48,149 bases of DNA from an uncultured Synergistales bacterium (GTDB taxonomy: Bacteria; Synergistota; Synergistia; Synergistales; Aminobacteriaceae), in contig CAJOES010000011.1 in the NCBI GenBank assembly GCA_905233455.1, forward strand, positions 3,959 through 52,107, given 5' to 3'. The notes beneath the pieces are model-generated. The model made no database searches and was not told where the DNA came from. It was given only the letters and a program-made list of their open reading frames with translations. Within the stretch, counting starts at the first letter, position 1, and each line of letters opens with the position of its first letter. A program made the translations under genes and the position numbers. This document shows, one piece after another, positions 12,626 to 41,936 of this stretch.

Positions 12626-13576
12626 TTAATTATGTATATATTTTCTAACTGTTAATTTTAATGTATATGGCACGAATGCTTTTGCAAGCTGCCAGATATT
12701 GCCTAGAACGTCGCTAGGATTCAAAACGACAAGCTGAAACCATGTCCTGAAAACATCTTTATATTTTCTGTTAGCTCCATATTTACTCAACAAGTTTTTT
12801 AGTGCCAATATATGACAATTTTTATTTTCGTTCAGACGATGCCGGTTCTTTTGATATATCTGTTCATACGCCAGCATATTTGTTTTTATATCGTTGCTTA
12901 TTCTCATTCTTCCATGTTCAGAAATATGTACATTTAAGAGAGGCTCATTGACATATGCAAAATCATAACGTTCTGACATTCTAAGCCATAAGTCCCAATC
13001 CTCAAGAGCTTCCAGAAATTCATCAAAGCCTCCTGCTTCCATCACTGCTTCCGACCTCAAAAGTGTGGCAACAGAAATAAAATTTGTTCTAACCAATTCT
13101 GTAAACATGTCCCCGCTGCTATTATGCTTGTCTTTATATATTGATATTGTAATCTTTCCTGTATCATCATTTATAAGGTAGTTTCCGCAATAAACCAGTG
13201 CCAACTTTTTGCTCTTGCCTTGAAACATTGCTAGCTGCTTTTCGAGTTTTGTGGGCAGCCATTCATCATCGTCATCAAGATAAGCAATGAACTCATACCC
13301 CCCCCCATCTTGTGTATTTCGCGCAATCTCTAGGGCGGTATTTCTGGCATGTGATACACCATAATTCCTGTCATGCTGAACGTAACATATTCTGCTGTCC
13401 TTTTCTGCCCAGCCTTCTACCATCTTTCTGACATCATCACGGTATTCATAGTCTGCAGGGCTATCATCTACTACAACAAGATTCCAATCCTGATATGTCT
13501 GTGCAACTACGCTCTTGAGTGCACGTTCAACCATTTCCGGCCTGCGCTTGTGCGTGGTTATTGCCGCAAGTATCAT
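12626..13576 (-). CDS. GT2-family glycosyltransferase with an internal G9 tract
   Basis: A 316-aa GT-A fold glycosyltransferase. The N-terminal nucleotide-sugar site is AAITTHKRRPEMVERALKSVVAQTYQDW, the first Asp motif is VVVDDSP, and the metal motif is AYLDDDDEW. I move the start from the track's 13744 to the ATG at 13576. It has GGGGG/AAAAGAG ahead of it, overlaps the upstream stop as ATGA, and starts at the normal position for the family. The upstream gene is a close paralogue. A run of nine G residues encodes Gly-Gly-Gly just before the DDDD motif, where the paralogue has only KGEYIAYLDDDDE. The frame is currently open. The probable role is surface polysaccharide assembly, with unknown sugar. 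Confidence 0.87.
   Translation of the reverse strand: MILAAITTHKRRPEMVERALKSVVAQTYQDWNLVVVDDSPADYEYRDDVRKMVEGWAEKDSRICYVQHDRNYGVSHARNTALEIARNTQDGGGYEFIAYLDDDDEWLPTKLEKQLAMFQGKSKKLALVYCGNYLINDDTGKITISIYKDKHNSSGDMFTELVRTNFISVATLLRSEAVMEAGGFDEFLEALEDWDLWLRMSERYDFAYVNEPLLNVHISEHGRMRISNDIKTNMLAYEQIYQKNRHRLNENKNCHILALKNLLSKYGANRKYKDVFRTWFQLVVLNPSDVLGNIWQLAKAFVPYTLKLTVRKYIHN
13298..13306. repeat. Homopolymer C9 (G9 on the coding strand) inside a glycosyltransferase
   Basis: Nine consecutive C bases on the plus strand lie within the GT2 coding sequence. Gain or loss of one base would remove the catalytic motif by frameshift. Tracts of this kind are known phase-variation hotspots in surface-glycan genes of other bacteria. 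Confidence 0.9.
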
Positions 13577-14418
13577 CTCTTTTCCCCCTTTATATGTGCC
13601 CATAACCTGAACGGCTGAAGCGGTAATGCCCTCAGCCACAGCATAAAGCTCTTCATGTATTCTCCGTTCTCCCTGTACATCTCCGACAGTGCAGAAAGCC
13701 TCTTGCAGCGTATATACCTGCTCTTGGCCGGGTGTTTTCTGCATATCCCTTCAAGCCCCTGAATGCGCCTCGTGATGCTTCCTGTAATATGTTCTCCCGT
13801 ATGAACATGATACCTCACGAGCGGTTCAGGCACGAACGCGGCATCATGCTTCTGCGCGATGGTCAGCCACATATCCCAGTCCTGACACGACTTCATGCCC
13901 TCGTCAAAACCTCCCGCATCTTCAAGGGCTTTTCTGCGTACCAGCGGGAAACTGCAAGACCCCACAAAATTTTCGCGCATAAGGTCATCATAGATACTGC
14001 CTTCAATGAATACGGACTTTGCGGTCTCTTCCGTGCCTGTATCGTCATGAACCATCATTCGCCCGCAATAGACCATAGCAATATTTTCATTCGTGAATCT
14101 CGCTAGCTGTTTCTCCAGCTTCTCCGGCATAAATTCATCATCATCATCAAGGTACGCTATGTATTCTCCCTTTGCGAGCTTCAAGCCCGTATTGCGCGCA
14201 CGGTTAGCTCCGTAATTCCTTTCGTGCCGAACATAAGATATATTCCCCTTAAGGCCAAGCACCATATCACGGACATCATCACTAAAAGCATAATCTGCCG
14301 GGCTGTCATCTACAATGATTAGTTCCCAGTCCGTAAATGTCTGGGATATGACGCTGTCGATTGCACGTTTGAGCATTCCGGGTTCTCTCTTGTATGTAGT
14401 GATTATGACGGTTATCAA
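13573..14418 (-). CDS. GT2-family glycosyltransferase, first gene of the operon
   Basis: A 281-aa glycosyltransferase with VIITTYKREPGMLKRAIDSVISQTFTDW, IIVDDSPADY, HERNYGANRARNTGL and YLDDDDEF (residues about 91-94). It is closely similar to the next gene through the DDSPADY, ARNT and GGFDE...DWDMW regions, so the pair looks like a tandem duplication. The start is TTG at 14418 with AGGAG about 13 bases ahead; no ATG or GTG is better placed. A TATAAT box at 14459-14454 on the minus strand could be the operon's -10. The stop overlaps the next start (ATGA). The family uses nucleotide-diphospho sugars; donor and acceptor are unknown. Confidence 0.88.
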   Translation of the reverse strand: MITVIITTYKREPGMLKRAIDSVISQTFTDWELIIVDDSPADYAFSDDVRDMVLGLKGNISYVRHERNYGANRARNTGLKLAKGEYIAYLDDDDEFMPEKLEKQLARFTNENIAMVYCGRMMVHDDTGTEETAKSVFIEGSIYDDLMRENFVGSCSFPLVRRKALEDAGGFDEGMKSCQDWDMWLTIAQKHDAAFVPEPLVRYHVHTGEHITGSITRRIQGLEGICRKHPAKSRYIRCKRLSALSEMYRENGEYMKSFMLWLRALPLQPFRLWAHIKGEKR

Positions 14419-31406: not shown

Positions 31407-32762
31407 TCAGCTCATATAAAAATAATTATATGTTCTTGCTAGAGTTACAGCTATACTCATTATACTGACAAGACAAGCCACTTCCTTTTCATGTTTTATG
31501 TTCCGTAAGAAAGAAAATGCTGACAATGCCATTAATGAAACGGGGATAAAGTATCTTCCCTGTACTCCTTCAATAATGAGAGAGCCGGGTTGATCCCATG
31601 CAAAGTATTCATACATGTCCAGTGCAAGAACTGTAGCCGCAAATCCTAAAATCATGATGATTCTATGTTTTATAGAAATGTTGAGCCGTCCAAGTGCCGC
31701 ACCGGCAGCTATAAGGAAAATATATATTGCTTTAAACCATATAGGCATTCCTAAATTAAGCCACCCCAACTGACCAATGAAAGAATTAACATAAAATTTC
31801 ATAAGAATTATGTTGCTCCTGATAATTATCTTCAAGAATCTAAATGGGTTTTCCTTGATAAATTCCATCTGGGCTGATATATCGGCTTTATTCAGTGCAA
31901 AGCTCACGCCATGCCTTGACACACTGAAGTACAGCCACACAAAAGATGAAACTAAACATACTGCAAGCATAATCACTCCGAAAGAATAATATTTTTTTCT
32001 GCTGCCAAGCCTCTTGTACGGCATCAGGAAATACAGCAGTAGCACAGTGCCGTAAACCTGTTTCAGAAGCCCCACGATCACAGCCATAACAATCAGCGCA
32101 ACACACTGCCGAACGGTGAGCCGATCTTCGCATCGTGTCAGGGACAATATATACGCTGATACCAGCATACACCCTCCAAACACTACAGCATCAGCAGCGA
32201 TTGAAGCACTTTCTGCCAGATACATAGGCATCATTGCCAGCAGGAATATCAAAAGGCCTTTTTCCGGAAGAAGCCTTATCGCCATAAATACGCATAAAGC
32301 CGAGAACAGTACAGCACCAATGCGCATGGCATAATATATTTCGCCCGCAGTTCCTCCGACTGAACGCACAACATACGCGCCCAATGCTTGAGGAAAATAT
32401 ACTATGGGAGCATATGAGCCGGTATTATTGATTGTTCGCATATCTCTGGAAGCATTTACAGGTTCAGACATAAAATCAGCTATATCCTTGAATGAATATC
32501 TGCCTTCACTTTGAACAATATTACCTACATACTTCTCTTGAAAAAATACTGACGGGACAAAAGATACGAGATTATTCTTATTGCTGAGGTTGTGTACCGG
32601 GCTTGCTAAAGTTCCTTCCGATATCTGCCAAGCTCTTGCAAAGTGGTTAGGTTCATCGGGAATCTGAAATACTGGAGTAAGAAATGCTAATGAAATTCCT
32701 GCAAAAAGCATAAACAACACATAAAACCATTCTATGCCTCCTGTACCCATTCCAGAAGACAA
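31407..32762 (-). CDS. DUF2142 multi-pass membrane protein, expression governed by an upstream pentanucleotide repeat
   Basis: 451 codons from the track's TTG. It has about ten to twelve hydrophobic segments. The N-terminal family motif is FLTPVFQIPDEPNHFARAWQISEG, whose acidic pair and His after the first helix resemble GT-C glycosyltransferases. The region VQGRYFIPVSLMALSAF is also typical. DUF2142 proteins are commonly found in surface-polysaccharide loci. No RBS precedes the TTG at 32762 or the ATG at 32750. The only good initiation region (promoter, AAAGGAG, ATG at 32821) is separated from this frame by eight GACAA units. With eight units the frames do not match; with seven or ten they would, giving an N-terminus MATII(DKTRQ)nDNLLSSGMGTGG. 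The gene is thus probably phase-variable and shown here in the OFF state. Confidence 0.85.
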   Translation of the reverse strand: MSSGMGTGGIEWFYVLFMLFAGISLAFLTPVFQIPDEPNHFARAWQISEGTLASPVHNLSNKNNLVSFVPSVFFQEKYVGNIVQSEGRYSFKDIADFMSEPVNASRDMRTINNTGSYAPIVYFPQALGAYVVRSVGGTAGEIYYAMRIGAVLFSALCVFMAIRLLPEKGLLIFLLAMMPMYLAESASIAADAVVFGGCMLVSAYILSLTRCEDRLTVRQCVALIVMAVIVGLLKQVYGTVLLLYFLMPYKRLGSRKKYYSFGVIMLAVCLVSSFVWLYFSVSRHGVSFALNKADISAQMEFIKENPFRFLKIIIRSNIILMKFYVNSFIGQLGWLNLGMPIWFKAIYIFLIAAGAALGRLNISIKHRIIMILGFAATVLALDMYEYFAWDQPGSLIIEGVQGRYFIPVSLMALSAFSFLRNIKHEKEVACLVSIMSIAVTLARTYNYFYMS

Positions 32763-32821
32763 CAGGTTGTCTTGTCTTGTCTTGTCTTGTCTTGTCTTGT
32801 CTTGTCAATTATGGTGGCCAT
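32732..32821 (-). other. Out-of-frame start ORF of the DUF2142 gene (OFF state)
   Basis: ATG at 32821, preceded by AAAGGAG (32843-32837, spacing 15), reads through the repeat as MATII-DKTRQ-DKTRQ-DKT and then TCCLLEWVQEA, stopping at TAG 32734-32732. The distance from this ATG to the in-frame TTG at 32762 is 59 bases. Removing one 5-base unit makes it 54 bases, 18 codons with no stop. Confidence 0.75.
32767..32806. repeat. Perfect pentanucleotide microsatellite (TTGTC)8 / (GACAA)8
   Basis: Eight uninterrupted units of TTGTC on the plus strand (GACAA on the coding minus strand) lie just inside the start codon of the DUF2142 gene. A unit length not divisible by three makes each slippage event change the frame. 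Confidence 0.95.
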
Positions 32822-41846: not shown

Positions 41847-41936
41847 ATGACTGCGTCTGTATACTGCGCACAGCACAGCACAGCACAGCATTATTTTTGT
41901 GTCTTTTTCCCTGTCCAGAATAACCCATCACAATAG
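41847..41936 (+). CDS. Short ORF containing a CAGCA repeat
   Basis: 29 codons (MTASVYCAQHSTAQHYFCVFFPVQNNPSQ) preceded by GGAAGGGAG. The leader GGAGCTTGACA just before the ATG also occurs before the DUF2142 start (GGAGCTTGACAAAATC). No known protein is recognised. Other frames after the repeat are also short, so it could be a leader peptide or the remains of a repeat-switched gene. Between it and the LRR gene at 42036 nothing else is seen. Confidence 0.35.
   Translation: MTASVYCAQHSTAQHYFCVFFPVQNNPSQ
41871..41890. repeat. Pentanucleotide repeat (CAGCA)4
   Basis: Four perfect CAGCA units, preceded by the near-unit GCGCA, lie eight codons after the ATG of the short ORF. The unit is five bases, as in the DUF2142 tract. 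Confidence 0.85.

Follow-up and report, generated by a model that had tools for sequence, protein, structure and literature searches.

A probable phase-variation switch before the catalytic aspartates of a Synergistales glycosyltransferase, one of about 41 G tracts that mostly share an upstream motif

Does a run of nine Gs placed just before the metal-binding site of a glycosyltransferase serve to turn that enzyme on and off, and does it act alone? The question is raised by a 48,149-nucleotide stretch of an uncultured Synergistales genome (the window, GC content about 47%), in which this run is the only G/C run of at least 7; shorter runs number 30 at length 5 and three at length 6. The plus strand around the tract reads CATACCCCCCCCCATCTTG, with exactly nine C at 13298-13306, which bears out the placement given in a preliminary description of the window. 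On the minus strand, which is the coding strand, the tract reads GGG GGG GGG in frame as codons 91-93, the Gly-Gly-Gly of ...RNTQD-GGG-YEFIAYLDDDDEW... (in a longer stretch, ...TQDGGGYEFIAYLDDDDEW). The DDDD metal-binding motif (residues 101-104, 13265-13276, minus strand) lies eight codons on. The description was right about the glycines but not about the linker, which it had as FIAYL and which is YEFIAYL. It had also called the present state ON, and indeed 316 aa can be read without a stop across the tract. In each of the other two frames a stop follows, 5 nt after the tract in one and 67 nt in the other, and a change of one base would therefore truncate the protein either ahead of the DDDD region or shortly after it, in agreement with the proposal that such a change removes the metal-binding site.

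The gene itself (12626-13576, minus strand) encodes, in its ON frame, a family 2 glycosyltransferase of the GT-A fold, as judged from PF00535, homologue alignment, AlphaFold and Foldseek. The Pfam match has an E-value of 2.1e-23 and scores 83.5 bits against a cut-off of 23.3. The 372-aa ORF as listed for this locus has its start placed too far upstream. The alignment of homologues begins at the ATG at 13576, which is taken as the start. In the AlphaFold model (pLDDT 85.9), the tract glycines fall in a loop (residues 87-95) between a helix (74-86) and a strand (96-101), right before DDDD. The latter sits at the end of the fourth strand of the fold, is invariant in the homologue alignment (A1), and would be lost on a frame shift. 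Foldseek matches of the model are GT-A enzymes (9jma, SpsA, K4CP). The fold, the PF00535 profile and the aspartate motif are common to SpsA, AvpGT (9jma), chondroitin synthase K4CP and the enzyme described here, but only in the last is the aspartate motif directly preceded by a poly-Gly loop that a G tract encodes; a divergent acceptor half and a TPR-like C-terminal stretch set it further apart. A tandem paralogue, also of family 2 (13573-14418, minus strand; identified from sequence, Pfam and alignment), has a stop that overlaps the ATG of the tract-bearing gene (ATGA) and contains no tract, as had been noted. The immediate neighbours, an HD protein, a two-component pair and CbiK, are not a glycan cluster.

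Close homologues are encoded in 16 of the 43 genomes of the genus, and tracts of G7, G9, G9, G12, G13, G14 and G16 are found in relatives at the same codon site; the site bears the tract, at lengths of 7-16, in copies from about ten species. In G029 (G9), G012 (G9) and G032 (G14), the gene is split into two frames exactly at the tract, with the catalytic halves intact. The N-half in these genomes, 75-86% identical to that of the window's gene, ends 94-115 aa from the start, and a different frame carries the catalytic and acceptor half; both halves are homologous. Six related copies have no tract, missing only the 3-4 residues of the tract columns and being otherwise collinear in the alignment. 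Compared across orthologues, as the preliminary description had suggested, the tract is not broken by synonymous changes; copies either keep it pure or lack the four-residue insert, and the copy in G035 is short, at G7. A separate feature of the alignment is a drop in identity between species at the tract site, from 66-86% in the N-terminal donor half to 32-42% in the acceptor half. The paralogue family that lacks the tract has the same break, which hints at acceptor-half swapping or fast divergence.

Tract lengths and off-frames of this kind might be artefacts of sequencing or assembly. Four tracts of the source genome touch runs of N, the copies in G039 and G028 stop at the tract because their contigs end there, and poly-G of 8 or more is described as error-prone and as breaking contigs (PMC4235727). 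Since poly-G is in any case a place where assemblies of short reads break, a contig end at a tract is ambiguous, and homopolymer lengths in such assemblies may be off by one. Errors could, however, shift only single lengths by one or so; they do not account for 40 long tracts in one genome, for the 12-nt insert that sits at a conserved site, or for the shared upstream motif considered below, and we find this explanation hardly credible. It is also improbable, if less extremely so, that the tract slips neutrally, in a gene that is redundant and drifting towards loss and whose product tolerates the glycine loop. The six homologous copies without a tract, the existence of the tandem paralogue and a later stop that the G004 copy also carries are in line with such drift. 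A neutral G run, on the other hand, should soon be interrupted, whereas one species after another has a long, uninterrupted tract at this site, and such tracts are concentrated in genes for surface glycans. To illustrate, two other tracts of the source genome, in GT1 and PEP mutase genes, occupy the same site in G033.

On the sequence evidence, we consider it very probable that the G9 tract acts as a phase-variation (contingency) switch at the level of translation, found here in the ON state. Slipped-strand mispairing, whose established role in phase variation accounts for the on/off logic, would add or remove single Gs. The complete glycosyltransferase would result from nine Gs and from all other lengths of that phase, its glycines forming the loop between the helix and the DDDD-bearing strand, while in the other phases translation would stop near residue 92-115 and leave no active enzyme. 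A sugar would accordingly be added, or not added, to a glycan that may well be at the surface; the gene encodes a family 2 glycosyltransferase, and the other tract genes are mostly glycan genes. Switching within a clone would presumably be reversible. MutS is encoded in all 43 genomes and MutL in 39 of them, including the source genome; in G028, what had the look of a split mutS is a gap of N. The presence of both proteins implies that loss of mismatch repair is not the reason for instability here, and that slippage rates may be lower than in Campylobacter jejuni, where such loss forms the background of instability (PMC4235727).

The tract is not alone. The source genome (2.49 Mb) contains 18 runs of exactly G7, three of exactly G8 and 36 of G9 or longer, a bimodal distribution, from which it follows that the long runs are no mere tail of chance runs but a population of their own. 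About 41 tracts of G8 or more are present, and 41 were examined in sequence context. Roughly 28 of these lie inside ORFs, about half in frame and half off-frame, and about six lie in promoter spacers. Where a gene is off-frame, its two halves match adjoining parts of one Pfam profile, for instance Peptidase_C39 (1-84 and 100-132), FGGY (2-100 and 117-207) and Fe-ADH (11-89 and 88-168). The tract genes are mostly those of surface glycans, namely GT1, GT2, GT92, GT87-like membrane enzymes, methyltransferases of the FkbM and TylF types, polysaccharide pyruvyl transferases, a sugar isomerase of the FdtA type and a PEP mutase/cytidylyltransferase; a C39-peptidase ABC exporter also occurs. Seven of the 41 tracts have -35/-10-like boxes around them, which as consensus matches mark putative promoters. 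Three of the seven have perfect TTGACA/TATAAT boxes with a 20-nt spacer, and two of these three are upstream of a ribosome-binding site and a signal-peptide-like start. The switch proposed for the window would thus be one of about 41, of coding and promoter-spacer types, most of them with a shared cis motif about 20 nt upstream.

Homopolymers can cause slippage of RNA polymerase, and a G run might therefore be a transcriptional-slippage or programmed-frameshift site that gives mixed products from one DNA sequence. Tracts in promoter spacers cannot act in this manner, though, and tract length changes freely between species, including to out-of-frame lengths; we give this explanation very little weight.

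Several of the tract loci have features of their own. L255, L256 and L257 (contigs C61, C10 and C118) have near-identical putative promoters, TTGACAGATA-C8/C10-...TATAAT, in which the 20-nt spacer is kept despite different tract lengths and the upstream motif overlaps TATAAT on the other strand. The PEP mutase/cytidylyltransferase, an Fe-dependent dehydrogenase and a TPP enzyme all have G tracts (L083 and L084 on contig C49, L110 on contig C54), and the PEP mutase gene of G033 (L249) has G13 at the same site. The PEP mutase/cytidylyltransferase and the neighbouring dehydrogenase would be consistent with phosphonate decoration, a pathway that may be switched at several steps. At L102 (2947-4338), a GT1 gene seems to continue beyond its tract into a further, partial copy of the gene's C-terminal region (a repeat of NQKELAEIYTASD), and looks like a tandem duplicate joined at the tract.

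The closest likeness is to the Campylobacter phasome, which also has many pure G tracts of about 9-12, mostly in surface-glycan ORFs and some in promoters, with on/off control by reading frame. In published accounts, C. jejuni NCTC11168 is given 29 tracts of 7 or more (PMC4965091), and Campylobacter draft genomes a median of 20, with 82% in ORFs, 52% G9 and 30% G10 (PMC6321876). The genus described here is unrelated, has a GC content of about 47% in the window, encodes MutS and MutL, and has about 40 tracts in the source genome and up to 59 in a relative. In addition, its tracts share an upstream motif, whereas none is mentioned in the accessible parts of the Campylobacter accounts.

This motif, which is new here, is AT-rich and palindrome-like (about TACGTAAWTTAC) and starts about 20 nt upstream of the G strand at most tracts. 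In the source genome, the flanks of the tracts display localized conservation at -12 to -8. A 14-nt matrix was trained on flanks from G033, G027, G017, G037, G024, G039 and G010, with the sequences of the source genome left out. It reads W N T A/C C G T A A W W T... and has a log-likelihood of 468, compared with 160 for shuffled input. When it is applied to the source genome, with 31-mers of the same loci as background, 29 of 39 tracts lie above the 95th percentile and 21 of 39 above the 99th, with matches that start at -22 to -18 (mode -20). Within this range of positions, 72% of tracts match as opposed to 1.2% of G4-G7 runs (Fisher p about 4e-34, a value somewhat flattered by choosing the range after the source-genome matches had been seen; the percentile counts are unaffected), and 10% of tracts pass in the same range on the opposite side. 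The lack of the motif at G4-G7 runs rules out a property of any G run. Its spacing is species-typical, at about -22 in G033, -18 in G017 and G037, and -19/-20 in G024. Since it is found in all three codon phases and at noncoding tracts, the motif is a feature of the DNA, and a cause at the protein level is ruled out. Sites that score at least 10 number 118 in 442 kb of strand, of which 17 precede a tract; this occurrence without tracts means that the motif is insufficient by itself. A fair copy, ATTGCGCGAAATAC (13314-13327, minus strand), accompanies the window's tract; it starts at -21, has a matrix score of 8.6 and reaches the 99.1st percentile of the source genome's background. Among relatives of the glycosyltransferase, the match is uneven, and its restriction to tract-bearing copies is not clear-cut.

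Inspected by eye, tract flanks in five genomes outside the genus, mostly high-GC G9 runs, have no such motif, and a general property of poly-G in the order is therefore not supported. Within the genus, G026 is an exception. Its tracts (L218, L221, L224 and others) are mostly without the motif, are nearly all exactly G9 to G11, and are followed by TA and then, about 7 nt on, by an AT-rich stretch. Many come after TTGACA, partly in promoters, a signature unlike that of the rest of the genus. A literature search, most subscription papers being outside its scope, returned neither a flanking motif nor phase variation in such genomes.

What the motif does can be read in more than one way. It may be a protein-bound site that stalls the fork and favours slippage, a site of tract birth, or a relic of tract spread; in our reading it would raise or steer tract instability, or tract birth. 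A dedicated system of the genus, in which a protein that binds TACGTAAWTTAC at a fixed distance upstream drives the birth, growth or slippage of tracts, is put forward tentatively, as a possibility on the doubtful side. That the motif is non-functional, either a relic of tract spread by gene conversion or small insertion with the G run, or an opposing -10 box, is a serious possibility, if short of an even chance. The (GACAA)n leader described below is clearly copied between three genes, and at the three promoter-type loci TATAAT lies inside the motif on the other strand, both of which suit this explanation. Against it, both the motif and its spacing hold whatever the codon phase, and do so in several species, and the tract-bearing glycosyltransferase copies differ by just 12 nt, with an uneven motif match. 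An opposing promoter at all tracts is rejected, only 7 of 41 having -35/-10-like boxes.

Together with the G tracts, simple repeats of a different type bear out the expectation of several switches in one genome, which the preliminary description had derived in part from a GACAA tract. Three loci have a nearly identical leader (AAAATCAAAATGGCCAYCATAATT) with (GACAA)8 or 9 after it: 32767-32806 on the minus strand of the window, L109 (contig C88) and L105 (contig C94). The leader is a 5' cassette that has been copied and that brings its own ATG. Its frame in the window closes with a TAG after 29 codons and is not that of the DUF2142 gene (31407-32750, minus strand), which has an internal ATG; on contig C94 the frame is open. 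The leader looks like a second class of switch. Elsewhere in the window, GCACA is repeated 4.6 times (41868-41890) in an intergenic region shortly after TTGACA, and is possibly a promoter-spacer repeat.

Neisseria and Haemophilus have G tracts in ORFs and promoter spacers, mismatch repair, and multi-base repeats near gene starts. The present genome resembles them and their simple-sequence-repeat phase variation (PMC5084427, PMC2651432) in having mismatch repair, G tracts of both the ORF and the promoter-spacer kind, and a GACAA leader like their gene-start repeats, but differs in a pentanucleotide leader cassette copied to three genes and in the tract-associated motif.

Candidate origins of homopolymer contingency tracts are listed in PMC6321876. 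How such tracts arise in new genes, and what sets their rates besides length and mismatch repair, are questions for which a motif shared at fixed spacing, in every codon phase, by many unrelated genes and in several species offers a concrete and testable handle. If the dedicated system were true, contingency loci would be programmed by a cis element and not by polymerase slippage alone. For the organism, the tracts amount to a phasome of Campylobacter scale in a little-studied genus that has mismatch-repair genes.
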